From the NCBI GenBank assembly GCA_023264995.1, contig JAHFUR010000022.1:1-64000 (forward strand): a stretch of 64,000 bases of DNA, given 5' to 3'. The notes beneath the pieces are model-generated. The model searched no databases and was not told the origin of the DNA. It worked only from the letters and a program-made list of their open reading frames with translations. Shown in pieces: positions 4,370 through 33,884 of the stretch. Both the position numbers and the translations under genes were made by a program. The stretch comes from Acidimicrobiia bacterium. Lineage in GTDB: Bacteria > Actinomycetota > Acidimicrobiia > Acidimicrobiales > AC-14. Within the stretch, counting starts at the first letter, position 1. Every line of letters starts with the position of its first letter.

Positions 4370-4375
4370 CGGGCT

Positions 4376-6079: not shown

Positions 6080-6153
6080 CGCACTCTCCCCCGAATGACG
6101 CGTTCTGGCCGAGCTACGGGCCGAGCCAGCATGCCCGGCGGTCTCGTGAAGCC

Positions 6154-6212
6154 CCAGCACCTTTGTCTGCGCCCTCGGCAGGATTCGAACCTGCGACACA
6201 CGGTTTAGGAAA
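6154..6212. repeat. Left attachment repeat (truncated tRNA-Arg 3' end)
   Basis: 59 bases identical to 33826-33884. Bases 6170-6212 correspond to tRNA positions 73 down to 31 on the minus strand (anticodon stem/loop through acceptor), followed by 16 bases of 3' flank. The 5' half of the tRNA is absent, so this copy cannot fold into a tRNA. It marks where the original 3' end was displaced on integration, with crossover at or near the anticodon loop. Confidence 0.9.
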
Positions 6213-6576: not shown

Positions 6577-6609
6577 CTCTCCTGTTCTATCCTGTCAGGA
6601 GAGAACAGG
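6577..6609 (+). promoter_or_regulatory. Overlapping inverted repeats, probable operator of the RES/Xre operon
   Basis: Two perfect 8-base inverted repeats interleave: CTCTCCTG (6577-6584) with CAGGAGAG (6596-6603), and CCTGTTCT (6581-6588) with AGAACAGG (6602-6609). They end at the Shine-Dalgarno AGGAGG that precedes ATG 6620. The HTH antitoxin is the obvious candidate binder. The choice between the two symmetric sites could act as a switch. Confidence 0.6.
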
Positions 6610-6619
6610 AGGAAGATCA

Positions 6620-7207
6620 ATGGCGATGACGCTCCACGAGCTGCTCGAGCGGCGGTTCGGCGTCAACGAGGAGGATTTCGCGGCCGCGCTGGAGGAGTTC
6701 GCCGATCGGGCCGGGCCGCTGAGCGTGGTCGACGTCCGCCCAGTCGAGTACCTCGGCGAGGCACAGCAGTCCACGCTCAGAAGGTTGGGTGCATCGCTGC
6801 AGCCGCTGCGCGCCGAGGAACTCGGCCCGATCGCCGGACTTGCCGCCGCGCATGCCGAGATCGTCTCGCAGTCGACGACCGTATCCACCTTGGCCAAACG
6901 GCTGGGGGTGGACCCCAGTCGTGTCCGCCAGCGGATCTACGCACGCTCCCTCTACGCCTTCAAGCACCAAGGGGGATGGCGCATCCCGAACTTCCAGCTT
7001 GAGTCGAACAGGATCATCCCCGGCGTCGAGGGCGTGGTGTGGAGGCTGTCTCCGACGTTGCATCCCGTGGCGGTCGTCCGCTGGTTCACAACGCCGAACT
7101 CCGACTTGACGCTCCAGGACAGGGCGGTGTCGCCCATCGCCTGGCTGGCCTCCGGCGGACCGCCCGAAGGAGTGGCAGTGATGGCCGGCTCCATCGACGA
7201 GCTCTGA
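6620..7207 (+). CDS. Xre/MbcA/ParS-type antitoxin of a RES toxin
   Basis: A 195-residue protein with a good Shine-Dalgarno (AGGAGG) eight bases before ATG. The middle (about residues 90-125, TLAKRLGVDPSRVRQRIYAR) is a helix-turn-helix. The C-terminal part, WFTTPNSDLTL to SPIAWLASGG, matches the toxin-binding domain (DUF2384-like) of antitoxins for RES toxins. The N-terminal about 80 residues are an extension without recognised motif. The RES gene starts at the next base after the stop (TGATTG), so both are surely one operon, autoregulated through the inverted repeats upstream. Confidence 0.8.
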   Translation: MAMTLHELLERRFGVNEEDFAAALEEFADRAGPLSVVDVRPVEYLGEAQQSTLRRLGASLQPLRAEELGPIAGLAAAHAEIVSQSTTVSTLAKRLGVDPSRVRQRIYARSLYAFKHQGGWRIPNFQLESNRIIPGVEGVVWRLSPTLHPVAVVRWFTTPNSDLTLQDRAVSPIAWLASGGPPEGVAVMAGSIDEL

Positions 7208-11246: not shown

Positions 11247-14200
11247 TCAAGCGAGAACCTGGACAAGTTCGCCGATGACGGCGATCTCGCCGTCCTCGAC
11301 GTTCGTGAGAATGATGGGCTCGAACTCACGGTTCAAGGGCTGCAGCTCGACCGTTCCGACGATCTCACCGTCAACCGTTCGCTTGGCGCTCTGATATCGC
11401 TTTACCGTATAGGACCCGCCGTTCTCCGGGTCAGCTATGTCCCGGTGCTGGGCGAGCACGATCTTGCCTCCTCGCGATCCGGCGCCGACGCGACGGAAGA
11501 TGCAGTAGGCGCGATCAGGGATTCGAGGCTCCATCGAGCGCCCCATGACCTGGGTCACGAACATCAATTCGTCGAGCTTGCCGACACCGGCAACGCCGGA
11601 CACGTCGATCCACCCTTGGGCCTCAACTTCGTGCCCATCGCCGAAGTAGCCGGCCGCGGCCTGAAGCGAGTACACGGGGAGATGTGTTGTGAAGCGATCC
11701 TCGGGCTCCACCTGCTCCTTCGTCTCGAGTGCACGCAGCGACACCAGGGCAGCGCCGGCGACAGGCTCGATGAGCTCAAGGGGGTTGTCTCCGAACGCGT
11801 AGTCGACGTCGATTGCCTTATAGTGGGCTTCGCCGAAGCGGATCTTCCAACCCTCGGTCTCCCACTGGAGCTTCTCAATGTCGGAGCTGCCTTTGGTCTC
11901 GCGCACCAGGTACAACCGACGCCCAGCCGCCTCGTCACGAACGAATGCCCAGTCGGGGTTGTAGTTCCCGAGCGGCGTAGAGACCTTGTACCAATCGGGG
12001 AGCTTCAGGAAGAGCGGTACGTCCCTTCGCCCGTCGAGGAACAGGGCGAACCTCGCCTCGACCTCGGAGTCACACACGATCATGTCGGCGACGCTGTTTG
12101 CCACCGGCACCACACGTGGCGCCACCGTCTCGTCCTGGTGGCGGTCGCGGAACATCGACGCCGGCCAGGAGTCGCCGGTCGGTGTGTACACGATGTCATC
12201 GGTGAGCTCTTCGTAGAGCGCGCGGTTCATGCAGTCGGCCACCTGGTCGATGAAGACGGCGGGGTTCGCCTTCACGTCGTCGAGTCGATCGCATGCTTTG
12301 AGAATCCGCACGATCGTCGCCCGGCTCAGCGGCAGCCTCCGGCACAGCTCACGAACGACGTCAGGGATTTGGATGGCTGCCTCGGACTCGATCGTGCCGA
12401 GATCGATGCCACCCCCCCCGCCGAGGCCGGCGGCGCCGACGGTCACCACATCCTTCGAGAGATGGAACTTCGCCTTCTCGACCTTGGGCATTTTGTTGAT
12501 TCGACGAACCGCCGCAGCAACGACGGCACCGGTACCGAAGGCCACCCGGTACGAGGTCCGCAGGGAGATCCGCTCCCAGAGGTCGGTGAAGGCCGACGAC
12601 TTGAGCACATTGGCCCCGAGGTGCACGACCTTCTTCTCGCGCATATTCACGATCCGACCCGTGAAGGTGACGCCGGTCTCCTCCTCGATCTCCTTCTGAA
12701 GCTGAGCGGCGAACGACGAGAACGACTCCTTCGCCACGACAGTGAGCAGGTTCACCGCCTCGAGATGGCAGCGGTCGCCGTTCGTCATCACGGGCAGCCG
12801 AAGCCCGCGTCCGACCTGCTGGCGTTTCCGCATCACTGACTTGCCCTCTTGCAGGTTGCAGATGGTGAAGACATTCGGGTTGTCCCAACCCTCCGCCAGC
12901 GCCGAGTGGCTGAAGATGAAGCGAAGCGGCTCCTCGAAGCCGAGCAGTTCCTCCTTGCGCCGCATGATCCGTTCGAACGCGTCGGTGGCATCCTTGGAGT
13001 CAGCCTTCGCCTCCTTCGGCACGCCCCTCGCCTCGGCGAAGTAGCCGGCGTGGGCGTTCTCGACGGGCGGCAGCCTCGTAGCCACTGCTCGGAACCGAGC
13101 ATCGTTGCGAAGCGCCTCGTACTCCTCGACGAACCACCGGCGGAGCTTGGAGCCCTCGGGGTGGTAGTCGGCGACATGCTCGATGAAGAACAACGTCAAG
13201 GGTTTCATCGGCGCGGCGATCTGGCCCCGCTTCTCGAGGAGCAGCAGCTGGAGCTCCTTCTCGAAGTGGCTGACGATGGCCTGTCGAAGCATCAGCCGCT
13301 GCTGCTGGTCGTCGGTCTCGGAGCTCGTCGACCCGGCCGAGATGCGCCAGCCGTTGGCGAAGTCCACCACCCCCTTATCCGCAAGGATGTCCTCGACGAC
13401 CCAGCCGGCGTACACCTCGCGATGACCGCTAAGGTCGAAGAGGTCGTCGTCTTTCCGCAGCGTAATCTGCGTGAGCCTCGTTCCTTGCCTCGTCGCCCTG
13501 TGGATCCTGGCAGTCGCGGTTACGGACCCCGGCTGCGCGTTGATCTTCACGACATCGACGAAGGCTTCGTTGAGATCCTCGTCCTTCGTGAGGGAGAAAA
13601 CGCCGATGCGCTTAACCAGCCGTTGGTTGTAGGCGTCGACAGGCGTGAGCCGGTGGACAAGGTGCGCGCCCTCGGGTGGAGTGGCCGAGTACCCCACGCG
13701 GAAGAGTGGCTGGAGAGCGTCCACCGCCGGCACCTGCGTCGGACCGTCGAGGCTCTGGGGTTCGTCCATCACCACGACGGGCCGGCACGCTCGCAGGAAC
13801 TCGATCGGGGCATAGCCGTTGAGGGCATCGGTTCGCCGATGGATGAGGCGGTTGTTCGCGTCGCCGGTCATCGCCGCGATATTGATCACCATGATCTGGA
13901 GGTGCGCCGCAGTGGCGAACTGGCGGACGCGTCCAGGTGCGCTGCCGTCGTACACGTGGTGGTCGTACTGCAACCCGTCGTAGAGCTCCCGGATGTGATC
14001 CCGCAGCAGTTTGAGGCTGTTGAGCACACCCTCGCGGATAGCGACGCTCGGTACGACGATCACGAACTTCCGGAACCCGTACTTCAGGTGCAGCTCCGCT
14101 ATCGTGCGAAGGTAGACGTAGGTCTTCCCGGTGCCCGTCTCCATCTCGACCTTGAACTGGACCGGCATCTCACCATCGGCGACATCGCGTCGCAGGAGGT

Positions 14201-14462
14201 CGCTGATCGACGGCACCTCGGACCCGTCCTCCAGCATGACGGGACGGTCCTGGACCCGACGGAGGCTTCTCATGACGGTCTCCGCTGTCAGCTGTAGCGA
14301 GTTCCCGAACACGAGCTCCTCAAAGAGCGCTCCATCCTCGGCGAGACTGGCCATGCCGAGCCCCTGCTCTAGCGACTCCTGCCCGGCGAAGAGCTCGACC
14401 ACGGCATCGATCGCGTCGCGCTGGAACTGCTGGTTCGGGTCATACCGGATCGGGACGGCCAT
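11247..14462 (-). CDS. res: Type III-like restriction helicase-nuclease (Res) fused to an S24/LexA-type protease domain
   Basis: A 1071-residue fusion. Residues 1-about 600 are an SF2 helicase: Walker A METGTGKT (107-114), DEPQ box (233-236), GYSATPP and QQVGRGLRLP. A Res-type PD-(D/E)xK nuclease follows: NYNPDWAF, then LVRETKGS. Residues 929-1071 add a complete S24 protease: VYSLQAAAG as possible Ala-Gly cleavage site (937/938), nucleophile Ser976 in GRSMEP, general-base Lys1021 in SYTVKRYQS, and an UmuD-like end ILTNVEDGEIAVIGELV. The first base of ATG overlaps the Mod stop. Res cuts unmodified DNA in type III systems. The protease tail suggests control by damage-induced self-cleavage, which is inference. 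Confidence 0.85.
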   Translation of the reverse strand: MAVPIRYDPNQQFQRDAIDAVVELFAGQESLEQGLGMASLAEDGALFEELVFGNSLQLTAETVMRSLRRVQDRPVMLEDGSEVPSISDLLRRDVADGEMPVQFKVEMETGTGKTYVYLRTIAELHLKYGFRKFVIVVPSVAIREGVLNSLKLLRDHIRELYDGLQYDHHVYDGSAPGRVRQFATAAHLQIMVINIAAMTGDANNRLIHRRTDALNGYAPIEFLRACRPVVVMDEPQSLDGPTQVPAVDALQPLFRVGYSATPPEGAHLVHRLTPVDAYNQRLVKRIGVFSLTKDEDLNEAFVDVVKINAQPGSVTATARIHRATRQGTRLTQITLRKDDDLFDLSGHREVYAGWVVEDILADKGVVDFANGWRISAGSTSSETDDQQQRLMLRQAIVSHFEKELQLLLLEKRGQIAAPMKPLTLFFIEHVADYHPEGSKLRRWFVEEYEALRNDARFRAVATRLPPVENAHAGYFAEARGVPKEAKADSKDATDAFERIMRRKEELLGFEEPLRFIFSHSALAEGWDNPNVFTICNLQEGKSVMRKRQQVGRGLRLPVMTNGDRCHLEAVNLLTVVAKESFSSFAAQLQKEIEEETGVTFTGRIVNMREKKVVHLGANVLKSSAFTDLWERISLRTSYRVAFGTGAVVAAAVRRINKMPKVEKAKFHLSKDVVTVGAAGLGGGGGIDLGTIESEAAIQIPDVVRELCRRLPLSRATIVRILKACDRLDDVKANPAVFIDQVADCMNRALYEELTDDIVYTPTGDSWPASMFRDRHQDETVAPRVVPVANSVADMIVCDSEVEARFALFLDGRRDVPLFLKLPDWYKVSTPLGNYNPDWAFVRDEAAGRRLYLVRETKGSSDIEKLQWETEGWKIRFGEAHYKAIDVDYAFGDNPLELIEPVAGAALVSLRALETKEQVEPEDRFTTHLPVYSLQAAAGYFGDGHEVEAQGWIDVSGVAGVGKLDELMFVTQVMGRSMEPRIPDRAYCIFRRVGAGSRGGKIVLAQHRDIADPENGGSYTVKRYQSAKRTVDGEIVGTVELQPLNREFEPIILTNVEDGEIAVIGELVQVLA

Positions 14463-16345
14463 CAGACCGTCTTCATCGTGACGCCGAGCTCGCGGGCTCG
14501 GGTGAATGCATTGACCTTCACCGAGTCTCGACTGGCGAAACCATCCTCCAGAAACACGAGGACTCGTGACTCAAGTGACAGGGCAGCCTCGATCGTCTCG
14601 TCAGCCAACGCCGGCGACAGGACGACGAGAACGCCGTCCGCCCCGACTGTCCACGCCGCACCAGCCTTGGTCCGCTGCCATGGTGCGTCCAGCCGAATCC
14701 CCTCCTTGATCAGGATTTCGGCCGCCAATGCCTCTATCCGCAGCGCGGAGTCCACCAGCGTTGACTCACTCAGGCTGAATAGACCTTCTGCCTCGGTCGG
14801 CGTAGATGCCGTGAAGCCGCTCCGCCCGAGTGCAAACACGCGCAAGCCCTGTTGGTCGCTGACCTCGTCCATCGCTGCCCGGAGACGGGCGTAGGTGATC
14901 TCGGAGACCGTTGAGTAACCCGCCTTGCGCGCGTTTGAATCAGTTGGTGTCGGCTCTGGCAGGTTGACCGAAAGGCATCGACGACGACCGCCGTCTGTCC
15001 GGTTGAGCCCGAGTACCGCGTGTCCCGTCGTCCCGGACCCAGCGAAGAAGTCAAGGACCACGTCATCGCGCCCCACCGAGTACTCAAGGATCCGAGTCAA
15101 CAACCCGAGAGGTTTGGGGTTGTCGAACACCCTTCCGCCCAACAGCTTCTTCACCTCAAGGCCGCCGGCCTCGTTTGCGAATTCAGATCCGTCCCAGAAC
15201 GTCTTGGGTGTCGCGCGGCGCTGCTGGCCGTCCCGCTCAAGATAGTCGACTTGGAACACGTCCCATCGCCCGAGACTTCCGACCTGTCGTCCCTTCAGCT
15301 CGTTCAGACGAGCCTGTGCCGTGGAGGAACCCCAACGCCATCGTCCGTCAGAACCGTCGGACAGCCTTGGGACGACTTCGATCTTGTGAGCAGGATCCCG
15401 CACCAACGTGACCGACCCTGAGGCCTCGGAGACGTAGAACGGGTAGTACATGGACGGCCGGTCAGATCGTTTGGCGTTCGATCCGCGCTTCCGGAGCCCC
15501 TGCAGTCGGTAGCGATTGCCGTTCCCGTCGGTCTCCGGATAGTCGTCAAGATATTCCGCCGGGAGCGGCACACCTCGCGGCACGAAGTCATTTCGCTTGT
15601 ACCCGAGCAGATAGTTGTGCGCTGTTGCGAAGAACTTGTCGTCGCTGCGACCCTTGAGATTGCTTACAACCGTCACACATCCCAGGAAGTTCTCGGGTCC
15701 AAATACCTCGTCCATGACAAGCCGGAGATTCTGGACCTCGTTGTCGTCGATGGAAACGAATATCGCGCCATCTTGGGTCAAGAGGTTCCGTGCGAGAACT
15801 AGCCGCGGATACATCATTGACAGCCATCCGCTGTGGCGCCGACCAAGGGTGTCCGCAGAGGCTGCGGTTCGGTTCCCCTCCTCATCGAGCTGCCCGGTGT
15901 ACTCGAGGTAGCCGCGAAGACCGTCGGTGAAGTCGTCTCGGTAAACAAAGTCGTTACCGGTGTTGTATGGAGGATCAATGTAGATCAGCTTGACCTGGTC
16001 GTTGTAGGCCTTCTGCAGGAGCTTCAGGACCTCTAGGTTGTCGCCCTCGATGAACACGTTCTGGGCGGTGTCGAAGTCGACCGACCTCTCGAGATCGGGG
16101 ACGAGCGTTCCCCTACTGGGCGTGAGGAGCGAGCGGAGCGCCTCCTGCTTGCCAGCCCACATCAGCCCGAAGCGCTCGCGCCCATCGGTCGGTGCGGCCA
16201 CCGGGATGTCGAGCAGCTCGCCGAGACGGGTGGCATCGAGCACGCCGTCGGCGATCACGCCGGGAAAGAGGTCTTCGAGCGACTCTCGGTTTATGGCTGC
16301 GATTTCGGGTGTCGAGAGGTCCACCTTCTGCGGCTGATCGATCAT
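14462..16345 (-). CDS. mod: Type III (beta-class) DNA adenine methyltransferase Mod
   Basis: A 627-residue N6-adenine methyltransferase. Catalytic motif IV DPPYNTGNDF comes before the SAM-binding motif I DFFAGSGTTGHAV, the beta-class order used by type III Mod proteins. The central variable region (about 250-430) should be the target-recognition domain and also contains GRRHSGWLSMMYPRL. ATG 16345 begins MIDQPQKVDLSTPEIA; the longer frame to 16435 runs into the divergent promoter and lacks similarity. The stop overlaps the start of res by one base, so mod and res form one operon. Mod modifies one strand of an asymmetric site that cannot be predicted from sequence. Confidence 0.9.
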   Translation of the reverse strand: MIDQPQKVDLSTPEIAAINRESLEDLFPGVIADGVLDATRLGELLDIPVAAPTDGRERFGLMWAGKQEALRSLLTPSRGTLVPDLERSVDFDTAQNVFIEGDNLEVLKLLQKAYNDQVKLIYIDPPYNTGNDFVYRDDFTDGLRGYLEYTGQLDEEGNRTAASADTLGRRHSGWLSMMYPRLVLARNLLTQDGAIFVSIDDNEVQNLRLVMDEVFGPENFLGCVTVVSNLKGRSDDKFFATAHNYLLGYKRNDFVPRGVPLPAEYLDDYPETDGNGNRYRLQGLRKRGSNAKRSDRPSMYYPFYVSEASGSVTLVRDPAHKIEVVPRLSDGSDGRWRWGSSTAQARLNELKGRQVGSLGRWDVFQVDYLERDGQQRRATPKTFWDGSEFANEAGGLEVKKLLGGRVFDNPKPLGLLTRILEYSVGRDDVVLDFFAGSGTTGHAVLGLNRTDGGRRRCLSVNLPEPTPTDSNARKAGYSTVSEITYARLRAAMDEVSDQQGLRVFALGRSGFTASTPTEAEGLFSLSESTLVDSALRIEALAAEILIKEGIRLDAPWQRTKAGAAWTVGADGVLVVLSPALADETIEAALSLESRVLVFLEDGFASRDSVKVNAFTRARELGVTMKTV

Positions 16346-16419
16346 CCACTCATCTCTCTGCTCGGCGGCTTGAGTTGCACCACGGTAAGCGAGATGACAT
16401 CTCTCGGTATGGTGGTGCA

Positions 16420-19164
16420 GTGACGGACGGGGCACCCGGCGACATCCCGGTTCTGGAGGGTGAGGCCGCAGCAGCCGTCGCTCATCGCGGTTCGCATGTG
16501 CAGATCATCGCGGCCGCAGGAGCTGGCAAGACAGAGGTCGTATCCCAACGCGTCACGTCGCTGCTTCAGGCCGAGCCACCCGAGAGCATCGTGGCGTTCA
16601 CGTTCACGGATAAGGCTGCGGCGGAGCTCAAGGAACGCATCCGGCGGCGGGTCGCCGCCACGCTCGGCGAGGGTGCCACCGACCAGCTCGGCCGGCTGTT
16701 CGTGGGTACGATCCATGCCTACTGCTTCCGCCTCCTGCAATCCCACGTTCCGCGCTACGAGACGTACACCCCGCTGGACTCGAACCAGCTCGTCAACTTC
16801 CTCTACCGGGAGGGAACCCAGCTCAAACTGAAGCAGCGGTTCGGGGCCGGAAAGCTCTTCCAGGGCATCGACAACTTCCTGCGCAGCGTCGACGTTGTCG
16901 AAAACGAGCTGATCGATCCGTCGGGTCTACCCAACGGCGAGTTCCGCACGACGCTCCTCGACTACTACGAGCGGCTCGACTCGTACCGGTTCATGTCCTT
17001 CGGGACCCAGATCGTGCGAGCCGTCGAGGCGCTCCACGATCCCGAGGTGCATCGGCGAGTCACCTCCGAGCTCCGCCACTTGATCGTCGACGAGTACCAG
17101 GACGTCAACCCGGCCCAGGAACGCCTTGTCGCCCGGCTTGCGAAGCCCGAAGGGTCAGCAGACCTCGTCGTGGTGGGCGACGACGACCAGGCGATCTACC
17201 AGTGGCGCGGTTCGAACGTCGACAACATCGTGAGCTTCGTCGACCGCTACCACGGCGTCGCTCAATTCCGCTTGCTCGCGAACCGCCGATCCCGCGCCCC
17301 GATCGTCCAGCTAGCAAACCAGTTCGCCCAGTCAATTCCAGGACGCTTGGACAAGGAGATGGGCCCCGACCGCGTGGAGGACGGCCCCGCCGTGTCGATC
17401 GCGATCGGTCACCAGGACGAGCAAACCGAGGCCGACGCCCTCGCCGTCGACGTCGTCGCCCTCCACGATCAAGGCGTCCCGTACCGGGACATCGCGATCC
17501 TGGTGCGAGGCAAGGTCGCCTACTCCTGCATCCTCGACGCGCTGGAGACCTATGGCGTACCCGTGCAGCCTGGCGGCCGATCCGGACTCTTCGAGCAACC
17601 GGAAGCTGCGGTCTTCGGCGCCACCTATGCCTGGCTCGCCGACATCGACTGGTCAGCCCGTCGTTGGACACGCCGCGAGACGGTCTCACTCGACGACCTC
17701 GTTGGCGTCTACGAAAGCGTGTTCGCCATTGACGACGCCGGCGCCTTCGCGCTCCGCGACCATCTTGATGCGTGGAAGCCAAGGACGCTCATCGAGGACT
17801 TCGACGTCAGCCTGGTCGGAGACTTCTACCTGCTACTCGCGCTGCTCGGCGTTGCGGCGTGGGACACCAGCGACGAGTTGACGCGCAACCGGCTCGGAAC
17901 TGTCGCCCGCTTCGCGACCGTGCTCGGCGACTACGAGGGTGTGGCTCGTCGATCCCGGCGCGACACTGCCAACCCGGGGGAACAGGTCGGGGGCGCCATC
18001 GGCAGCGAGTGGTTTTACCGGAACCTCGCGTTGCTGCTCGTCAACTACGCGATCGGCAACTACGACGACTTCGATGGTGAGGAGGATCTCGCCGCTGACG
18101 CCGTTGCCCTTGGGACGGTCCATGGCGCCAAGGGCCTCGAATGGCCGGTTGTCTTTCTGCCGTCACTGACCGACGGTCGCTTTCCGTCTAGCCGCACGGG
18201 ACAAGCCCAGACCTGGTTGGTCCCGAGGGCCATGTTCGACGCCGCTCGGTACGAGGGAACCGACGCCGACGAGCGGCGGCTCTTCTACGTGGCGCTCACG
18301 CGCGCGAGGGATTGGGTCGCGCTGTCGTCTCATCTGCGAGTCAACAAGCAAGGCCGACGACCTTCGCCCTACTTGAAGGACTGCAGCGCGTTCGCAGGCG
18401 GTGGTGGCTACCCGACGGGCGTCGATCCCAGGCGCACCGAAACGCCCGACGTCGCTGTGACCTACAGCGAGCTGGCGGCGTACCTCACATGCCCACAAAG
18501 CTACCTGCTGCGAAACCAGCTCGGCTTCCAGGCTCCGATCCGGGGGGAGATCGGTTACGGCAACGCCGTACACCACGTGATGCGGGTCATCGCCGAGCAG
18601 ACGAAGGCCAACGGAGCGCTTCCCACCCCTCGGCAGATCAACGACCTGCTCACCTTCGAGTTCTACTTGCCCTTCGCCAACAAGCCCGCGCACAAGCAGA
18701 TGCGAGAGAACGCCCGCAAGCTCGTCTTCAAGTACGTCAACGATCACCAAGACGACCTTCGGCGGACCTGGGCAACCGAGCGACCGTTCGAGCTATCCCT
18801 GCAAGGCGTGGTGGTCAGCGGTCGGGCAGACGTGATCTACGACGGCGACGAGTCACACCCGGAGAACCTCGTGATCGTCGACTACAAAACGTCGACCCGC
18901 GGATCGGTCGAACCACTCCAGCTGCAGGTCTACGTCGATGCAGGGCGACGCGAGGGCCTGACCGTCCAGGCGGCATTCATCCACGATATGGCGACGACAC
19001 AACGGCATCCCGTCGCGGTCGACGATGGAGCTGTCGGCGTCGCGGAATCGACAGTGCGCGCTGCCGCCGACGCCCTCCGGCTGCGCGACTTCACTCCAGC
19101 ACCGGAGCTGGCGAAGTGCCAGGCTTGCGACGTCCGGTTCGTGTGCAAGTCGGCACTCAGCTGA
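16420..19164 (+). CDS. UvrD-like helicase fused to a Cas4/AddB-type nuclease
   Basis: A 914-residue protein. The SF1A helicase has Walker A AAAGAGKTEVV (about 32-42), FTFTDKAAAELKERI, VDEYQDVNPAQE, GDDDQAIYQWRGS and FYVALTRARDW. From about residue 685 a PD-(D/E)xK nuclease follows: Cys691 in YLTCPQSY, GRADVIYDG, the catalytic VDYKTS (D821, K823) and CQACDVRFVC (C900, C903, C909), together forming a probable 4Fe-4S cluster as in AddB and Cas4. It likely unwinds and degrades DNA ends. GTG 16420 is preceded by TATGGT plus six bases, so it is probably leaderless. It is divergent from mod and overlaps the end of the next operon by 8 bases. Confidence 0.85.
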   Translation: MTDGAPGDIPVLEGEAAAAVAHRGSHVQIIAAAGAGKTEVVSQRVTSLLQAEPPESIVAFTFTDKAAAELKERIRRRVAATLGEGATDQLGRLFVGTIHAYCFRLLQSHVPRYETYTPLDSNQLVNFLYREGTQLKLKQRFGAGKLFQGIDNFLRSVDVVENELIDPSGLPNGEFRTTLLDYYERLDSYRFMSFGTQIVRAVEALHDPEVHRRVTSELRHLIVDEYQDVNPAQERLVARLAKPEGSADLVVVGDDDQAIYQWRGSNVDNIVSFVDRYHGVAQFRLLANRRSRAPIVQLANQFAQSIPGRLDKEMGPDRVEDGPAVSIAIGHQDEQTEADALAVDVVALHDQGVPYRDIAILVRGKVAYSCILDALETYGVPVQPGGRSGLFEQPEAAVFGATYAWLADIDWSARRWTRRETVSLDDLVGVYESVFAIDDAGAFALRDHLDAWKPRTLIEDFDVSLVGDFYLLLALLGVAAWDTSDELTRNRLGTVARFATVLGDYEGVARRSRRDTANPGEQVGGAIGSEWFYRNLALLLVNYAIGNYDDFDGEEDLAADAVALGTVHGAKGLEWPVVFLPSLTDGRFPSSRTGQAQTWLVPRAMFDAARYEGTDADERRLFYVALTRARDWVALSSHLRVNKQGRRPSPYLKDCSAFAGGGGYPTGVDPRRTETPDVAVTYSELAAYLTCPQSYLLRNQLGFQAPIRGEIGYGNAVHHVMRVIAEQTKANGALPTPRQINDLLTFEFYLPFANKPAHKQMRENARKLVFKYVNDHQDDLRRTWATERPFELSLQGVVVSGRADVIYDGDESHPENLVIVDYKTSTRGSVEPLQLQVYVDAGRREGLTVQAAFIHDMATTQRHPVAVDDGAVGVAESTVRAAADALRLRDFTPAPELAKCQACDVRFVCKSALS

Positions 19165-20470
19165 GGGGTCGGATCCGATCCTGGTCGCGGAGCGCAGTCC
19201 AGAACCGAATGTGCGAGTCATGCCCTCGCCCGACGACGTCGGGCCGGCCAGGAGCTTGTCCCGCGCTCGGCACGAAGTCGGCGAGTGTCGAACCGACGTG
19301 ATCGCGCGTCAGGACGACCAGGCCAGCCTGGTGCCGAGACGCCATGACGCACAGCCGTCCTGTCTCGAGGTCGAACGCGGATGGATTGGTCACGCCTGAG
19401 AGGGGATGTAGGACGATCATCACCGGGCGTTCCAGTCCCTGCCAACGTTCGGGCGTGTCGACCCTGATCGCACCGCTCCAGGTGGCCAACTCCTTCGCGA
19501 TGGCTGCGTTCATGATCCGGTGGCTGCTCGAAACGCCGATGTCGGCGGGCGTGAGTGACCGACCCGCGTCTCCAGCTGCGCCCAGTCGGACCGTTGTCTC
19601 CGATGTGAGGAGTTCAGCAACAACCTCGGCGACCGCTCCGGCGAGCTCGTGGTCGACCTCGAGTGGAGGGCCGTGGGTCGGGGTCGGAACGGTCAGGACC
19701 ATTGGCCGGCCGTCAGCGAGGTCGCCGAGGGGGTCGCCTCGGGCGAGGTCCACGCCGCGCGCGCCGGGCTCGACGAACGCATGAAAGTCGAAGTCGTAGA
19801 ACGGCCGTACGAAGTCGACCGACTCATGCGGAAGACGTCGGCAGGCCGGGAGAGACCCCGTGTAGCGCTCGGGTTCAAAGGAAGGCTCGGCCAGCACGAC
19901 CTCGGGTGCTGCCTCGTGAGGCGCACGCGGCGATGTCTCCCACCGGCGAACGTCGATCGTCACCACGGGAGGGATCTGGCCGGGGTCGCCGATCAACAGG
20001 AACCGCTCGCTGAGCAGCGCGCACTGCATGAGATCGGCCCAGCTCATCTGCCACGCTTCGTCGACGGCCAACAGGTCGAACGGCACCCCGACATCGGTCA
20101 AAGACCATTTCGCCGTCGTCGCGACCGTCACGCCTGGCGCAGTAGGGAGCTGCGCGGTCGCAGTCAGCCACGTGACGCTCGCGGGAAAGCCCGCCGGTGG
20201 CAACGAGTTCTTGCTCGAGAAGCGTGCAGTCGCAACGTCAGGGTGGTCGGCAGCGAATCGGAGGCAGATGTCGTCGGCCTGGCTATTGGTCTGGGCAGCC
20301 ACTGCAATCCGCTGGCCCGATCCGACCAGCCTTTTCAGCACCTCGATCAGCGTGAAGGTCTTCCCGGACCCTGGTGGCGCCTTCACCACGGCAAGGCGGC
20401 CGCTGCCGTTGAAGTGGTCGACCAGATCTTGGCGAAGCGCCATGTACTGTTCTTCGATCTCACAGCTCAC
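19157..20470 (-). CDS. SF1B (Upf1/Dna2-like) helicase
   Basis: A 437-residue single-unit SF1 helicase. Walker A is KAPPGSGKTFT (30-40), Walker B LLAVDEAWQ, motif III IGDPGQIPPVV, motif V-like DTPERWQGLERPVMIVLHP and motif VI CVMASRHQAGLVVL. The insertions typical of large UvrD proteins are missing, so it resembles the small Upf1/Dna2 class. The ATG overlaps the stop of the upstream unknown gene, making it the last gene of a three-gene operon. Its last bases overlap convergently with the UvrD-nuclease gene. Polarity and substrate are unknown. Association with a Cas4-like nuclease suggests end processing. Confidence 0.75.
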   Translation of the reverse strand: MSCEIEEQYMALRQDLVDHFNGSGRLAVVKAPPGSGKTFTLIEVLKRLVGSGQRIAVAAQTNSQADDICLRFAADHPDVATARFSSKNSLPPAGFPASVTWLTATAQLPTAPGVTVATTAKWSLTDVGVPFDLLAVDEAWQMSWADLMQCALLSERFLLIGDPGQIPPVVTIDVRRWETSPRAPHEAAPEVVLAEPSFEPERYTGSLPACRRLPHESVDFVRPFYDFDFHAFVEPGARGVDLARGDPLGDLADGRPMVLTVPTPTHGPPLEVDHELAGAVAEVVAELLTSETTVRLGAAGDAGRSLTPADIGVSSSHRIMNAAIAKELATWSGAIRVDTPERWQGLERPVMIVLHPLSGVTNPSAFDLETGRLCVMASRHQAGLVVLTRDHVGSTLADFVPSAGQAPGRPDVVGRGHDSHIRFWTALRDQDRIRPLS

Positions 20471-22035
20471 GTCGAGCTCTCCGAGATCTGCGTGACGTCG
20501 TCGACAAGCACATCGGCCGCGCCGTCATCGTCGACGATCTGCACCGGGGCCGGAGCCTTGCCGTGGGTGAGCCATGCGCCCGGGCCGTCCTTCGCAGCCC
20601 AGACGCGTTGGCTCCGGCGCAGCGTGAGGTCCGCCGCGTCAGCCATCACGAACGCGAGCTCTTGCCCGATCCACGCGTGGTCGATCGGTTTGGCGGCGAT
20701 CCCGCACGCGAGCGGCATGGTCTTTCTCGTCGTCCACTCGAGCTCGAGCTCGACCCCGACCCCGCCCTCGATCAACCGCAAAGCAGTCACCACTGCCTCG
20801 TGGCCCCTAGAGCCATAGGGAACGAGGCGGCTGCTCTCTCGGACTCGGCTCGGTGCCTCGTTTCGAAGATCGACCACCCACACCGGGACAGTCGCTTTCC
20901 CGCTCCCGAGGTTCACCACCTCCGTGACGGTTGCCACCAGTGCCCGGCCATCGGCCATCGCCTCGCGAAACAGCGCCGGGTCGTGGTGAACGAGGTGACC
21001 GTCGTATCCCTCGTCGTTTGACGCATGGATCAGGTAGCGGGACGCTGCAGAGGAACCGTGATAGTCGGTCTCGGGATGCGCGATGAAGGCCGGGCCCTGC
21101 GCCGGGTCGTTCTGGCGGAGCTCGATCCGTTGGTGCTGGAACCAGAACTCCTTGTGGGCTTGGCCGACGAGGGCGTCGACGCCGGGGTTGACGGGGAGCT
21201 TGCTCTTGGCGAGGTAGGTGTACGCCTGCTCGGTACGGTGCCAGCGCCGGTCGAGCTCGACCACGAGGACATCTCGGATGAGAGCCTCGACGTCCTGCGG
21301 CGGCGCGCCTTCACGGCGGCCTGCCTGCCATCGTTCGACCAGGTCAGCCAAGTGGTCGCGCTCGATCGACGGGTCCATGGTCGGTGAGATAGTGAGCTGT
21401 TCCGCAGCCGAGGCCGCCACGATGCGGTCATCGCGGTCCCCGTGCGTCACGAGCCATGCCAGCTGATAGCCGAGATGGGCGGTTCGGGCGTCCTGTGCGG
21501 GAAAGGCGAACGCATTCGACAGGGCGCGACTGGCGTCGACCACGTGTTGATGACCAGTCCGGCTGCAGTCACGGAACATCCACCCGGCGAGCCGTCCCAG
21601 CGCCTGAAGGATGTCCTGGTTGACCCCGCCGAACCTCGTCTGCGAGAACGTGTAGTTCAGCTGGTGGAGCATGGCGAGGTGCTGTCCGTTGGGAAGCCAC
21701 ACCTGCCGCAGTTCGTCAACGGCGGCAGCTTGTCCCACTGGGTCGTAGGTCCAGTTATGCACACGCATGTGCGACAGCAGGGCCTCGGCGAAGTTTGCGC
21801 AGAGTGCACTCACGTCGTCACGGACGCGGCCGTCAGGGACGCTTTCGACCGTGGGCTTGAACCCGACTGTGCCCCAGGCGATCCCCCACGGTCGGGACTC
21901 TCCGGCCATCCGGACGAAGGCCACGATCATCGCCCGGTCGGGCGCTACAAGCGAGTGGTGCAAGGTCTCGTACCTAGGTGTCGGGGCCCCGCCGTCCCAG
22001 GCGCTGAGCTTCAGAGCGACATCTCGGATTCTCAT
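20467..22035 (-). CDS. Unknown protein between a nuclease and a helicase
   Basis: A 522-residue protein I cannot assign to a family. It begins MRIRDVALKLSAWDGGAPTP and has a long alpha-helical central part (about 100-300). In the C-terminal half it carries His/Asp-containing segments such as HPETDYHGSSAASRYLIHAS and GYDGHLVHHDPALF, then beta-rich stretches (LVATVTEVVNLGSG, VELELEWTTRKTMPLACG). No P-loop, HEPN, HNH or transmembrane segment is visible. It overlaps both neighbours by 4 bases (ATGA), so it is translated in fixed proportion with the Cas4-like nuclease and SF1 helicase. It could be the specificity or scaffold subunit. Confidence 0.6.
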   Translation of the reverse strand: MRIRDVALKLSAWDGGAPTPRYETLHHSLVAPDRAMIVAFVRMAGESRPWGIAWGTVGFKPTVESVPDGRVRDDVSALCANFAEALLSHMRVHNWTYDPVGQAAAVDELRQVWLPNGQHLAMLHQLNYTFSQTRFGGVNQDILQALGRLAGWMFRDCSRTGHQHVVDASRALSNAFAFPAQDARTAHLGYQLAWLVTHGDRDDRIVAASAAEQLTISPTMDPSIERDHLADLVERWQAGRREGAPPQDVEALIRDVLVVELDRRWHRTEQAYTYLAKSKLPVNPGVDALVGQAHKEFWFQHQRIELRQNDPAQGPAFIAHPETDYHGSSAASRYLIHASNDEGYDGHLVHHDPALFREAMADGRALVATVTEVVNLGSGKATVPVWVVDLRNEAPSRVRESSRLVPYGSRGHEAVVTALRLIEGGVGVELELEWTTRKTMPLACGIAAKPIDHAWIGQELAFVMADAADLTLRRSQRVWAAKDGPGAWLTHGKAPAPVQIVDDDGAADVLVDDVTQISESST

Positions 22036-23102
22036 GTTTCCGTCAGTAGCCGCTGCAGGTCCGCTTCGCGATCGTCCACTGGCTCAGCCCCGCCGAGCAG
22101 TTGGATGGCACGAGTCAGCGAGGTGTCGCCTAGAACTCGCTTCACCTCCCCGCCGAGGATGATCGGATCGTCCGCCGCGCTCGCCGCGGCGTGGCATCGG
22201 GGCGCGAGATCGCAAAACGACAAACAGGACTCCGAGTAGTCGGTCTCTGCTTCCAGGACTCGCTGCACGAGGGTCGGGTTGTCGGCCGAGAAGTCATCGT
22301 CGCGAACAAGCGACTGTGCGACCTCCTCGAGGCGGAGGAAGCCCCGCTGAGCTCGAATCGCCTGATAGGTGAGGTCCTCACTCGGCCGTACCGCCGGCGA
22401 GTTCGACCCCGGCCAGGTGAATATGAGGAAGCCGTCGGTAGAGACATGGATCGTATCTGCAAGTTCGAGCGAGGCGACGGCGAGCGTCAGGGCGTGCTGA
22501 TACAGGCCAGCCTGCGCTCGGGCCGACGCGAGCTGGTGCGGGTCGGTGTGACCTCCTCGGTCCGGGAACACCTTGATCTCACCGACCCGGAGTCGAACTC
22601 TGCCCTCCTCAGCGAGGACGGCGACCACATCGATGATCAGCAGGGCCTCGGGAAGAATGACGCCTCTCGGGATCCTGACCATCGGTGCAGCTACGATCGA
22701 GGCGACGCTGGTGCGGTCGGTGGCAATGTCGGCCAACCATCGCGTGGTCTGCTCGAGCGCCTGATCGACCGTGGACACATGCCTGCCGCCGTTCATCTTC
22801 AGCCGGAGGTCGACGAACCCGGCGGAGCTGGGGGGAAGGCACCCCTTTCGCTCGAGTCCCTCCCGCAGCCGAGCAGCCTCGTCGTAGAAGAGCCCGGCCT
22901 CGAACCGGTTACCGCGAGCGATCGCAAAGGGCGACTGACCGAAGCTTGGGACGAGACCTACCTGCCTCGCTGCGGCGTCGAGCCGGACGTTGTGCACCGC
23001 CGAAAGTATGTTGGCGGCGCACGTCGGATTCTTCGCCCACTGCTCGAAGCGCCCGCGGGTGTTGCGGCGTGCTTCCTCCCTGATCTCGTCGACTTCAGGC
23101 AT
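22032..23102 (-). CDS. Cas4/AddB-like PD-(D/E)xK nuclease with Fe-S cysteines
   Basis: A 356-residue protein with the full RecB-family nuclease pattern: early Cys28, GNRFEAG (64-70), catalytic Asp158 in LLIIDVVAV, Glu175-x-Lys177 in VGEIKVF, the QxxxY motif QAGLYQHAL (197-205), and late cysteines 293, 297 and 303 in SCLSFCDLAPRC. With Cys28 these can hold a 4Fe-4S cluster as in Cas4 and AddB. No cas genes or CRISPR array are present. It is the first gene of the A-B-C operon, with a plausible Shine-Dalgarno (AGAGGAA) seven to eight bases before ATG. The likely activity is ssDNA or DNA-end cleavage together with the helicase. Confidence 0.75.
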   Translation of the reverse strand: MPEVDEIREEARRNTRGRFEQWAKNPTCAANILSAVHNVRLDAAARQVGLVPSFGQSPFAIARGNRFEAGLFYDEAARLREGLERKGCLPPSSAGFVDLRLKMNGGRHVSTVDQALEQTTRWLADIATDRTSVASIVAAPMVRIPRGVILPEALLIIDVVAVLAEEGRVRLRVGEIKVFPDRGGHTDPHQLASARAQAGLYQHALTLAVASLELADTIHVSTDGFLIFTWPGSNSPAVRPSEDLTYQAIRAQRGFLRLEEVAQSLVRDDDFSADNPTLVQRVLEAETDYSESCLSFCDLAPRCHAAASAADDPIILGGEVKRVLGDTSLTRAIQLLGGAEPVDDREADLQRLLTET

Positions 23103-23435: not shown

Positions 23436-25205
23436 CTATGTGGACGACCTCTTACGAAGTCGCCGGCTCCGGTACCACGGCTTGATCCGAACGTGCGCCG
23501 GCGGCAACGTCCCGTGGACGAGTAGCGCGTCGCCGGGACGCATCTGGCGGAGAGCCGCCGGCGGGACGAGGGGCACGCCGGTGACGCTCTGCCGATCACC
23601 GTCGTAGTAGGCCGACTGGCTGCTGAGCCGGGACGGGACGTGCTCGTCACCGAGGAGCCGGCTCAGGTACTCCAGGCCGGCGGCGTCGCTCATGCCGGCG
23701 AAGAACAGCTTGGTCAGGTGGTTGGTCAGGATGGCCTGGGACTGCTTGCCGTATGCCGCCTCGATCTGGCCGACCGACTGCCAGGCCGTCACGAGCTGCA
23801 CGCCGATCCCTGACAATGTCGAGGCCCAGGAAGGCAGCTGGTCTGGCCGCAGCGTCGCCGCCTCGTCGATCACGAGGAGCAGGGGCGGGTCGAGCGGCTT
23901 GCCGGTCTGGATGAACCGTTCGAAGGCCCGGCCGACGAGGTCGTTGAGCATGCCGCCGAGGACGGGCCGCAACCGATGTTGGTCGTTGAGGGGGATGCAG
24001 ACGTAGAGCGTGTTGTTCTTCTCCAGCAGCCAGTCGAGGTCGATCGTGCAGCTCGAAGTCGCCTTGGCCACGAGGGGATCGATCCACGGCCACACCATGG
24101 TCCGGGCCGTGGCGTAGACGCCCGACACGGTGCGGTGGTCGTTGCGCCACAGACCCTCCAGCACGAGGCTGGCGAACTCGCCGGCGGCCTTGCGCTCCGG
24201 ATCGCCGTCGCCCTTCAGCGCCCGCATCAGGGGTTGGACCTGGCCGACGTTCTCATCGATCGGCATGTCGGTCGCGACCACCCACCCGACGACGTCGGCG
24301 AAGGTCCGGTCCTTGGCGTTGGCGGCGACGATCAGGAAGGCGGCAATCAGGCTCTCGGCCATCTGCAGCCAGAAGTCGCCGCCCTCCCCGCTCGAGTCCC
24401 GCCGGGGTGCGGCCTCGGCGATCTGGCGGGCGGCCCGCACGGCGCCGCTCACCGTCTTGGCGCTGCGCAGCGGGCTCCACGTGGCGCTCTCCCGGCCGGT
24501 CACCCCGCTCGGGTCGAAGACCTTGACCTCGCCGAGGGAGCCCCGCCAGTTCCCGGTGGCATCGAGGAAGTCGTTCTTGAGCGACACCAGGATCGCCGGG
24601 TGCCGCCACTCGAACACGCCGTTGATGATGTTCGTCGTCTTGCCCGATCGACTCGGCCCCACCGGCATCACGGCGCCGGGTCCGCTGGATGACCGGCGCC
24701 GGCGCTTGATGAAGCCGACGGCCTCGGTGGCGATCAGGCGCCGGCCCACCCGGCCGAGGACGAAGCGTCCCGGCACCGGCCGCCGGATCAGCAGCGGACG
24801 CAGCTCCATCGGCTTGGCCAGCCGGCCCTGGGCGGACACGCCGGCCCGCCGGCGCTGGCCGAGTGACTCTGTCGGGTCACGGAACACCTTCCAGGCGACG
24901 AAGGCCACGCCGATGCCGGCCACGGCGGCCACGATCGTCGAGAACCAGTACAGGATCGGGCCGGGCAACTGGTCCCGTTGTTCGGGCAACCAGGCGGCGC
25001 GGGGATCGCCCATGTGGTCCCGCATGGCGAGCATGGCCTCGCCCGCCTGCTGGAACGTCGCGTGCAGGGGATGGCCGTGGGTCATGAGCGTGGCCAGTTG
25101 GGCGCCGGCCCAGGCCACCACCAGCAGTGCGATCAAGACGAATAGCGCCGCCATCCCCAGCTTCCCGAGGATGTCGTCGCCTTGTTGTTGCGCGGTCTGG
25201 TTCAC
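23436..25205 (-). CDS. VirD4/TraG-like type IV coupling protein
   Basis: A 589-residue coupling ATPase. Two N-terminal membrane segments (about 17-40 and 82-107) are followed by the motor domain with Walker A GPSRSGKT (183-190) and Walker B LLLVIDEAATL. LVTAWQSVGQIEAAYG is typical of the TraG/TraD C-terminal part. Coupling proteins hand the relaxase-DNA complex to a secretion channel at the inner membrane. Its ATG overlaps the stop of the relaxase gene (4 bases), so both are co-translated. No VirB-like channel genes are in the element, which fits mobilization by a helper. Confidence 0.85.
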   Translation of the reverse strand: MNQTAQQQGDDILGKLGMAALFVLIALLVVAWAGAQLATLMTHGHPLHATFQQAGEAMLAMRDHMGDPRAAWLPEQRDQLPGPILYWFSTIVAAVAGIGVAFVAWKVFRDPTESLGQRRRAGVSAQGRLAKPMELRPLLIRRPVPGRFVLGRVGRRLIATEAVGFIKRRRRSSSGPGAVMPVGPSRSGKTTNIINGVFEWRHPAILVSLKNDFLDATGNWRGSLGEVKVFDPSGVTGRESATWSPLRSAKTVSGAVRAARQIAEAAPRRDSSGEGGDFWLQMAESLIAAFLIVAANAKDRTFADVVGWVVATDMPIDENVGQVQPLMRALKGDGDPERKAAGEFASLVLEGLWRNDHRTVSGVYATARTMVWPWIDPLVAKATSSCTIDLDWLLEKNNTLYVCIPLNDQHRLRPVLGGMLNDLVGRAFERFIQTGKPLDPPLLLVIDEAATLRPDQLPSWASTLSGIGVQLVTAWQSVGQIEAAYGKQSQAILTNHLTKLFFAGMSDAAGLEYLSRLLGDEHVPSRLSSQSAYYDGDRQSVTGVPLVPPAALRQMRPGDALLVHGTLPPAHVRIKPWYRSRRLRKRSST

Positions 25206-27607
25206 AGGTCAACCCCTGTCGGTGCGAGGTGGTCGATGGCAGCGGTCTTGGCCCCGCTGCGGTGCAGGGCCGCCTTGAACGAGGCGACCGGGTCAAGCTC
25301 GGGCTGGGGGCCGTGGCTCAGCTCGGCCTCGGGCGCCACGAGGTAGAGCTGGTTGCTGAGCCGGCCCCGGGTCAGGCTCGTGTAGCCGGTCTCGATGGTG
25401 AAGGTGTCGTCGCCGAGGACGAAGAGCCGGTCACAGGTCGCGCCTTGGGCCTTGTGGACCGTTGCCGCGTACCCGAACGTCAGGTGGCCGGCGTCGATGT
25501 AGTCGACGGGAACGTCGACGCTCCGCCCGCGGCCGAGGTCGACCTTCAGGGCGTCCTTGGTGGCCGAGGCTACCTTGCCCCTGGTGCCATTGAGCACGCC
25601 GAGGCGGTAGTCGTTGCGCAGGGCCAGGATGTCGTCGCCCACCGCGAAGCTCAGGCCGCCGGCGTCGAGCACCTCCTCCCCCAGCTCGCCCCGGGCGGCC
25701 AGCAGCTCACGGGCCCGGCCGTTGAGGTCGGCCACCGTGGAGCGGCGGGCGGCGACCATGAGGACGTCGTCGCCACCGGCTCGGGCCTTGTACCAATCGC
25801 CCACGAGACCGTCACGAAGCTGGTCGGCGTTGTCGGCGGTGATGACGCTGCCGTGGCGCTGCATGCGGTCCATGGCCGCCTCGACGTGACCGAGGCGCAG
25901 TTCGGCCACCACGGCCCGCTCCTCGGGATCGCGCTGGCGGCGGTTCTCGGTGAGCTCGGCGTAGCCCAGGCGGTGGGCCAGGGCGGCGAACAGGCCGCCG
26001 GCGTCGATCTCCGGGAGCTGCTTCGGATCGCCGACGAGGACGACCTTCGCTCGCGCTGCCCGGGCCTCGTCGATCATGGCGGCCAGCCGGCGGGTGCCCA
26101 CCATGCCGCTTTCGTCGATCACGAGGACGCTGCGCTCGTCGAGTCGCTCGTAGCCGGTGGCCAGGCGGTTCCGGAGACGGTCGATGGTCTGGGAGGCGAT
26201 GCCGGCGCCGTTCTGCAGCTCGGCCGCGGCCCTGGCCGCCAGCGACGCGCCGAGCACCCGGTAGCCGGCGGACTCCCACGCCTCCCGGGCTGCGTCGAGG
26301 CTGAACGTCTTCCCCGTACCGGCCGGGCCAATGACAATGTCGATCGGACGCCCGGAGCCGGTGATGGCGGCGACGACCTGACGCTGGTCGGCGCCGAGGG
26401 AGGGACGGGCGTCGAGCGCGCGGTCGATGTTGTCGCGCCCGACGACGGCCGCCGGCGGAGCGGGCGACATCGCCAGCTCGACGATCCGGCGCTCCAGGGC
26501 CAGCATCTCCGGCGTCGTCCACCGGCCCTCGGCCACGGCGACCGCGTAGGGGCCGGCGAGCATGGCGTCGGCGCCCTGCTCCAGCTCGTCAAGCGACGCT
26601 CCCTGGGTGGCGGCCTGGGCGAGCGCGCGGACCACGTCACGGCGGGCGAAGGTGGCGTGCGACTCGGTCAGCAGGCCGGCTAGGTCGGCGTCGTCGACGT
26701 CGAGGACCGGGGTGCGCACCAACCGAGGCAGGGCGCCGATGTCGAGGCCGAACGGCTCGGCCCTCACTGCCCAGCGGTGGCGCAGCTCGGGCTCCGAGAC
26801 GTGCTCGTCCTTGGGGTGGCGGGTGTCGAGGGTCGCGGCCTGGGCACCCTTGGCCGACGCCGCGCCGTGCCGCTCCATGGCGGCGAGGATCTCCTGGCGA
26901 CGGTGGGAGAACTCCCGCCGCAACGCCGGCGGGACGCCGGCGACATCGGCGTGGCCCTGGGCCACCTCCTCGAACAGCAGCCCGGTCGAGCGGGCCAGCT
27001 CGTAGCGCAGAACGGCCTGGTAGACGAAGCCGGCGGTGCGGCCGTGGCGGTAGAGGTCCCGGTTGTCGAGAGCGGTCCAGCGGCCGTCGGGGCCCTCGGC
27101 CATGTTGGCGATCAGGACATGGGTGTGCAGGGCGGGATCGCCGGCCCGGCTGGTGCGGTGGCGGAAGGCGGCACCGACGAAGCCGTCGGCGTCGTACAGC
27201 TCGGTGCCCCCGTGGCCACGCCTGACGCGGCAGGCATGGCGTTCGAGGTACTCGATGGCCTGGTCGACGGCCCGGTCGTGGCAGGCGACGACCTCGGCGG
27301 CCGTGGCCTCGTCGCCCAGGCCCCAGACCAGCGAGATCGACTTCGGGGCCGACAGGGTGAGGTCCATCCCGGGCCGGCTGGCGTTCGTCGCCCGCAGCGG
27401 CTCATCGCTCCTGGGCCGCCGGCCGGCGAGGACGGCGCGCAGATCGTCGGTGCCGACTCGGCCCTCGAGACCGAGACGGTCGGCGCCCCGGCCGAGCCAC
27501 CGGCCGGGAACCTCGCCGACGTGGAGGTAGTAGTCCTCGGCGCCGGCGAGGACCTCTTCAAGGTAGTACGCCTCCTGGCCGAGGCTCAGGCGGCCGATGC
27601 TCAACAC
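25202..27607 (-). CDS. MobF (TrwC-type) relaxase with RecD-like helicase domain
   Basis: 801 residues from GTG 27607 (or TTG 27604), reading VLSIGRLSLGQEAYYLEEV. The relaxase domain has N-terminal tyrosines (AYYLEE, DYYLHVG) and the metal-binding HTHVLIANM. The C-terminal SF1 helicase has IGPAGTGKTFSL, LVIDESGMVGTRRL, VLVGDPKQLPEI and TVHKAQGATCDRLFVLGD. MobF relaxases nick oriT, stay covalently bound through Tyr and unwind the strand for transfer. The upstream extension to 27877 lacks similarity and overlaps an HTH gene, so it is rejected. Together with the coupling protein this defines the element's mobility module. Confidence 0.9.
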   Translation of the reverse strand: MLSIGRLSLGQEAYYLEEVLAGAEDYYLHVGEVPGRWLGRGADRLGLEGRVGTDDLRAVLAGRRPRSDEPLRATNASRPGMDLTLSAPKSISLVWGLGDEATAAEVVACHDRAVDQAIEYLERHACRVRRGHGGTELYDADGFVGAAFRHRTSRAGDPALHTHVLIANMAEGPDGRWTALDNRDLYRHGRTAGFVYQAVLRYELARSTGLLFEEVAQGHADVAGVPPALRREFSHRRQEILAAMERHGAASAKGAQAATLDTRHPKDEHVSEPELRHRWAVRAEPFGLDIGALPRLVRTPVLDVDDADLAGLLTESHATFARRDVVRALAQAATQGASLDELEQGADAMLAGPYAVAVAEGRWTTPEMLALERRIVELAMSPAPPAAVVGRDNIDRALDARPSLGADQRQVVAAITGSGRPIDIVIGPAGTGKTFSLDAAREAWESAGYRVLGASLAARAAAELQNGAGIASQTIDRLRNRLATGYERLDERSVLVIDESGMVGTRRLAAMIDEARAARAKVVLVGDPKQLPEIDAGGLFAALAHRLGYAELTENRRQRDPEERAVVAELRLGHVEAAMDRMQRHGSVITADNADQLRDGLVGDWYKARAGGDDVLMVAARRSTVADLNGRARELLAARGELGEEVLDAGGLSFAVGDDILALRNDYRLGVLNGTRGKVASATKDALKVDLGRGRSVDVPVDYIDAGHLTFGYAATVHKAQGATCDRLFVLGDDTFTIETGYTSLTRGRLSNQLYLVAPEAELSHGPQPELDPVASFKAALHRSGAKTAAIDHLAPTGVDL

Positions 27608-33825: not shown

Positions 33826-33884
33826 CCAGCACCTTTGTCTGCGCCCTCGGCAGGATTCGAACCTGCGACACACGGTTTAGGAAA
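33826..33884. repeat. Right attachment repeat, overlapping the intact tRNA
   Basis: 59 bases identical to 6154-6212. They cover tRNA positions 31-73 and 16 bases of 3' flank on the minus strand. Because the element brings its own copy of the tRNA 3' half, the gene stays functional. Confidence 0.9.

Follow-up and report, generated by a model that had tools for sequence, protein, structure and literature searches.

A UvrD-like helicase fused to a Cas4-type nuclease (UvrD-Cas4) has been described in type III restriction-modification (RM) neighbourhoods (Hudaiberdiev et al. 2017, PMC5704561), and the passage of that paper concerning these fusions regards them as ancillary enzymes of type III RM loci. 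The analysis of 64,000 nucleotides from an Acidimicrobiia bacterium (contig JAHFUR010000022.1, positions 1 to 64,000; hereinafter, the window) disclosed an island of six genes (11247-23102) that extends this published, little-studied link, as far as that passage describes it, with a putative helicase-nuclease made of three proteins. The six genes encode a methyltransferase (Mod), a restriction subunit (Res), a helicase-nuclease fusion (UvrD-nuclease), a superfamily 1 helicase (SF1), a protein first read as unknown (UNK) and a Cas4-like nuclease (Cas4L); Cas4L-UNK-SF1 are referred to as the triad. The island might represent a modular mobile restriction-and-degradation system, composed of Mod-Res, the UvrD-nuclease and a Dna2/TM0106-like triad (probability roughly 0.55), and its genes probably form one modular anti-invader system.

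All six open reading frames (ORFs) were found where an earlier reading of the letters alone (the sequence-only reading) had placed them, and the overlaps of 1, 8, 4 and 4 bp and the divergent gap between the Mod and UvrD-nuclease genes were confirmed (Table 1). The same reading had claimed that the set differs from BREX, DISARM, Gabija and classical type III RM. The first three distinctions held: in the six proteins, Pfam and PADLOC gave no match to PglZ with BrxC/PglY (BREX) or to DrmB (DUF1998) with the DrmA helicase (DISARM), and for Gabija the matches were GajB-like alone, without GajA (for two of the six proteins, among the 25 best families). The fourth did not, as PADLOC identifies Mod with Res as a type III pair (E-values in Table 1). 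Mod contains DPPY and FAGSGT, in agreement with the type III signature (DPPY and FxGxGT, next to Res), and Res contains GTGKT, DEP and PDW...ETK, so that the two genes are predicted to be a type III RM pair of an already known kind. The UvrD-nuclease, with its GKT, GRAD, IVDYK and CxxCx5C motifs, partially resembles GajB and RTasHel in PADLOC and joins a UvrD-like helicase to a pfam12705 nuclease beside mod-res. This half of the island (Mod-Res and UvrD-nuclease) is already described, the link between mod-res and UvrD-Cas4 having been published in 2017 in the passage cited above.

The Mod proteins of Nocardioides cavernae (L016) and Kineosporia sp. (L017) illustrate how the pair may vary. In these two different genera, five of the island proteins share 91-94% identity and Mod 67%, the identity dropping to about 30% in the centre of Mod (genes at L016:16784-18589 and L017:15076-16935); judging from the sequences, this is a natural swap of the target-recognition region, usual for type III systems. 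Res of the window and of genome G344 ends in an S24 domain (window 11247-11700; L014:1200-1622) with the GxSMxP serine (Ser976), a lysine (Lys1021) and an Ala-Gly dipeptide upstream, as in self-cleaving LexA/UmuD. The remaining six members of the Res family have no such domain, suggesting that it is an optional regulator of Res, and by analogy an SOS-linked control of the restriction enzyme is possible. On a short, perhaps truncated or chimeric, Planctomycetota contig (L043:55-2488), Cas4L is followed by a fragment of a Res-like nuclease with an S24 domain at its end.

The other half of the island is new to Pfam, PADLOC, NCBIfam and the literature searched. Pfam recognised no domain on UNK or Cas4L and generic helicase domains alone on SF1; UNK and Cas4L gave no match in PADLOC, none above noise in NCBIfam, none significant in the PDB and weak ones alone in PHROGs. 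No viral contig could be confirmed to carry UNK or SF1, and no plasmid carrying UNK was found. Among the openly accessible papers and PMC preprints searched, none on the triad was retrieved, the relevant literature being that on UvrD-Cas4 and on CoCoNuTs. The sequence-only reading had listed an unknown protein and a separate SF1 helicase; both genes are real, but they are better read, on the basis of predicted structures, as parts of a single UPF1-like helicase divided between two genes. In the UPF1-like helicases Sen1, SETX and IGHMBP2, the stalk/1B region is N-terminal to Walker A. SF1 has only about 30 residues ahead of Walker A, lacks a 1B/stalk region of its own and aligns, from Walker A onward, with the helicase part of single-chain TM0106-helicase fusions (hhalign 99.3%). 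The AlphaFold model of UNK (predicted local distance difference test score, pLDDT, 84.8; 29 sequences) superimposes through residues 321-483 on the stalk/beta-barrel regions of the same three helicases (VIA-align Z 9-10; residues 355-483 on IGHMBP2 with a root-mean-square deviation, rmsd, of 2.8 over 104 residues); its residues 31-290 superimpose (Z 8-10) on the RNase H-like 3'-5' exonuclease domain of DNA polymerases. The tail of UNK, continued by the head of SF1, would join stalk/1B to motor in register. The conserved DEDD acids are absent from the alignment of the RNase H-like domain, which is probably an inactive scaffold. Whole-length Foldseek matches of UNK to Aquarius and flavin reductases were discarded (low TM-scores, high rmsd).

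As for Cas4L, its model (pLDDT 84.3) is closest to Cas4 (VIA-align Z 10.8), with lambda exonuclease, EXO5, AdnA and Dna2 ranking below, and the conserved E68, D158, E175, K177, Q197 and Y201, together with C28, C293, C297 and C303, indicate that it keeps the full set of predicted catalytic PD-(D/E)XK and Fe-S residues. The gene order Cas4L-UNK-SF1 repeats the domain order of TM0106-helicase proteins, in which the position of 1B/stalk follows that of UPF1-like helicases; hence, the triad resembles, as far as the models indicate, a nuclease-helicase of the Dna2/TM0106 type divided in colinear order into three proteins. Of the features of such a machine, the Fe-S and nuclease residues are present in Cas4L, while 1B/stalk ahead of Walker A is seen in the predicted fold of UNK only, the profile comparison of UNK being negative. 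It is known that UPF1-like helicases act on RNA and single-stranded DNA, and the CnuH helicases of CoCoNuTs are predicted to act on RNA (PMC11090510), which, with the RNase H-like fold of UNK, might speak for a triad acting on RNA like CnuH and killing or silencing infected cells. This is very improbable, given that Cas4L is of the DNA-nuclease Cas4/Dna2 type, that the RNase H-like domain lacks conserved DEDD acids and that the partner proteins are DNA enzymes.

UNK was searched in 395 genomes of the window's class and was found in six of them, while the Cas4L alignment, run against 84,980 genomes, retrieved 34 loci, nearly all from Actinomycetota. The comparison of the six proteins with all loci by tblastn separated two groups. 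In group A, all six genes are present in eight cases: the window, G344 (L007/L014), G181 (L008/L015; same order as the window), N. cavernae, Kineosporia sp., BroJett022 (L021), a metagenome-assembled genome (MAG; L023) and Cellulosimicrobium funkei (L025). These are 8 of the 12 type-A loci that can be scored, and their most divergent proteins are down to 34-39% identity. Two Arthrobacter loci (L018 and L019) contain the triad and the UvrD-nuclease, with no matching Res anywhere in the genome; an Actinomycetales MAG (L022) and an Acidobacteriota MAG (L027) harbor the triad without UvrD-nuclease or Res. In group B, mostly Actinomycetota MAGs, the triad is directly followed by a TM0106-like RNase_H_2 nuclease and RM genes are absent; a weakly similar TM0106-like nuclease also adjoins Res in BroJett022. 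The tree of the concatenated triad proteins splits off group B with a support of 1.000; in the remaining part, the most divergent full copy (L023) has Mod-Res, which L018, L019 and L022 lack, suggesting that the pair was lost.

Some copies lie in other contexts: one Arthrobacter triad (L018:1-21056) is embedded in a dense defence island among Type ISP RM, GmrSD, RNase_T and DUF4011 helicase genes, and at L047:827-8180 a Fic gene and a Wadjet-like set (SbcC-like ATPase, DUF4194/MksE, DUF3375) adjoin the start of Cas4L. The Dna2-like composition of the triad, and the location of some group B copies among metabolic genes, might point to a DNA repair (end-resection) module, recruited in group A to mend or clean up chromosomal breaks made by the restriction enzyme of the island itself. 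We consider this improbable: the patchy distribution reported above is unlike that of core repair genes, and so is the location of the triad, within a mobile element or next to defence genes (Type ISP RM, GmrSD, Wadjet).

The sequence-only reading had also proposed that the six genes may be one composite system. In support of this, the pairwise distances of all six proteins correlate over the eight full loci (r 0.79-0.98, permutation p at most 0.004), and every genome found to contain a close relative of Res (three among 395 in the window's class, one among 369 in another class) also bears the triad. The convergent SF1/UvrD-nuclease overlap is exactly 8 bp (TCANNTGA; TTACTTAG in L023) in all nine comparable loci, i.e., the seven full loci keeping the orientation and the two Arthrobacter ones, so that the junction looks inherited rather than re-made. 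In nearly all loci, whether of group A or B, 4-bp overlaps connect Cas4L, UNK and SF1, and dN/dS (nonsynonymous to synonymous rate ratio) values of 0.035-0.20 reveal purifying selection. The co-occurrence of the genes, checked as that reading had suggested, was found in eight genomes; however, the triad and the UvrD-nuclease are also found apart.

It might therefore be asked whether two independent systems lie side by side on a shared element, with separate mechanisms, one being a type III RM assisted by UvrD-Cas4 and the other a triad acting as a defence system of its own. The triad does occur alone (L022, L027) or with the TM0106-like nuclease of group B; UvrD-nucleases of 53-63% identity exist without it, next to pairs of other type III RM subfamilies in L066, L067 and L107 (in L065, with no evident defence partner); and in C. 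funkei the Res-Mod-UvrD block runs the other way round with respect to the triad but still adjoins it. On the other hand, the six genes are kept together in most scorable type-A loci despite the low identity, with conserved overlaps and correlated distances, and the Res subfamily of the island is seen with the triad only, so that two systems are considered the less likely explanation. In the vicinity of these UvrD-nucleases, two further arrangements can be seen. One lies directly behind a 1,695-aa SACS/NOV_C protein, without a triad (L068:3925-11767), and a SACS protein adjoins Cas4L in L020; the genes of a HerA-like ATPase (DUF87) and of an unknown protein of 450-470 aa adjoin these systems in two unrelated loci (L025:5490-9947 and L067:4807-8369), and are possibly another defence pair.

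Several observations weigh against the restriction-and-degradation reading. The occurrence of the triad without Mod-Res, without either partner or, in group B, with another nuclease suggests that it has a function independent of modification. UNK and Cas4L show no significant homology to TM0106 nucleases or fusions by profile (hhalign E 0.03-0.66), and the fold matches of the split helicase have Z about 9-10, a range flagged with a warning by VIA-align; since sequence profiles confirm no homology outside the motor, the assignment of the split helicase is a structural one. Lastly, the G181 copy has stops inside UNK and UvrD-nuclease (L008:1304-2851 and 4172-6910), due to either decay or MAG errors. 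An obligate unity of the six genes is not supported, and the data fit a recurrent but modular composite, in which the triad is the constant core and the partners are exchangeable; that modification controls two nuclease-helicase machines, as had been supposed, is conceivable.

The island is the cargo of a 27.7-kb integrative element inserted at tRNA-Arg and bounded by an exact 59-bp direct repeat (Table 1), with a GC content of 0.67 within and 0.71 outside. RES-domain, nucleotidyltransferase and Fic plus RHH-like genes provide a toxin-antitoxin (TA) context. Together with the integrase and the relaxase, this bears out the earlier view of a mobile, defence-like island carried as cargo among TA modules. 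Just beyond the element (34099-35124) lies a gene for a neocarzinostatin-family domain protein.

Table 1. Genes of the island and of its carrier element, with their positions in the window.
Feature	Position	Strand	Evidence
Res, type III restriction subunit: SF2 translocase, PD-(D/E)XK endonuclease, C-terminal LexA/UmuD-like S24	11247..14462	-	Pfam ResIII, RE_endonuc, Peptidase_S24; PADLOC REase_III E 1.5e-212
Mod, type III N6-adenine methyltransferase, variable central target-recognition region	14462..16345	-	Pfam N6_N4_Mtase; PADLOC MTase_III E 9e-146
Divergent Mod/UvrD-nuclease intergenic gap, 74 bp	16346..16419		ORF boundaries
UvrD-nuclease: SF1A helicase fused to Fe-S-type PD-(D/E)XK nuclease (UvrD-Cas4)	16420..19164	+	Pfam UvrD-helicase, UvrD_C, PDDEXK_1
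SF1: putative RecA1/RecA2 core of UPF1-like helicase	19157..20470	-	Pfam AAA_11/AAA_12
UNK: predicted RNase H-like domain lacking conserved DEDD acids (residues 31-290), then stalk and 1B beta-barrel of a helicase (residues 321-483)	20467..22035	-	AlphaFold model, alignment
Cas4L: predicted Cas4/Dna2-type PD-(D/E)XK nuclease, four Fe-S-type cysteines	22032..23102	-	AlphaFold model, conserved residues
Type IV secretion system (T4SS) coupling protein of carrier	23439..25205	-	Pfam T4SS-DNA_transf
TrwC-type relaxase of carrier	25205..27607	-	TrwC match E 2e-83
Tyrosine integrase of carrier	31946..33091	-	Phage_integrase
attL, 59-bp copy of tRNA-Arg 3' end	6154..6212		Exact repeat of 33826-33884
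attR	33826..33884		Overlaps 3' end of tRNA-Arg(CCT) 33841-33914

In the restriction-and-degradation system proposed here, the variable central region of Mod would define the target at which host DNA is marked, and invading DNA without the modification would be cut by Res. By family, SF1A helicases (UvrD) move 3'-to-5' and SF1B ones (UPF1-like) 5'-to-3'; the UvrD-nuclease would enter at DNA ends in the former direction and degrade. Cas4L, UNK and SF1 might assemble into one Dna2/TM0106-like nuclease-helicase, in which the RecA motor would come from SF1, the Fe-S nuclease from Cas4L, and the stalk, the 1B beta-barrel and a probably inactive RNase H-like scaffold from UNK. With their opposite polarities, the two machines might constitute a destroyer of the RecBCD/AddAB type, fed by Res cuts or by the ends of invading DNA. 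The complex, polarity, substrate and anti-invader role of the triad are inferred only; the end-degradation role of the UvrD-nuclease fits the ancillary function assigned to UvrD-Cas4 in the relevant passage of PMC5704561. A more tentative extension, which we regard as possible though not favoured, is that the triad is the core of an unrecognised defence family, a trisected Dna2-like machine plugging into sensor modules (type III RM and UvrD-Cas4 in group A, the TM0106-like nuclease in group B), forming a two-polarity destroyer with UvrD-Cas4; in the window and G344, the intact LexA/UmuD-like S24 domain of Res could then link restriction to the SOS state. If the restriction-and-degradation reading is right, there would be a UPF1/Dna2-type helicase with 1B/stalk and motor in separate genes, and a restriction system carrying its own two-motor degradation machinery; moreover, the triad marks new candidate defence loci spread over Actinomycetota and present in a single Acidobacteriota genome.

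Compared with known systems, the island shares with type III RM the overlapping operon of an N6-adenine methyltransferase with a variable centre and an SF2 translocase/PD-(D/E)XK Res, but it adds two helicase-nuclease modules and, in the window and G344 only, the S24 domain of Res. With Gabija, it shares the partial match of the UvrD-nuclease to GajB models, but GajA is absent and the fusion is far larger. AdnAB, AddAB and RecBCD also pair helicase motors with Fe-S RecB-type nucleases, whereas the island would combine a UvrD-nuclease with a split UPF1-like motor. Eukaryotic Dna2 likewise unites an Fe-S Cas4-type nuclease and an SF1B helicase with stalk and beta-barrel; however, it is a single chain without an RNase H-like domain and with a replication/repair role. 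The order predicted for the triad (Fe-S PD-(D/E)XK, RNase H fold, 1B/stalk, RecA1-RecA2) is also that of the TM0106 family (TIGR03491; RecB-like nuclease/RNase_H_2/UPF1-like helicase), from which the triad differs in being three separate genes in every readable locus, in the lack of acids in its RNase H-like domain and in a homology detectable in the helicase core only. Lastly, the UvrD-Cas4/type III RM loci resemble the island in that mod-res is adjoined by a fusion of a UvrD-like SF1 helicase with a Cas4-like PDDEXK_1 nuclease, while the Cas4L-UNK-SF1 triad is absent from the UvrD-Cas4 passage of PMC5704561 and distinguishes the island from the loci described there.

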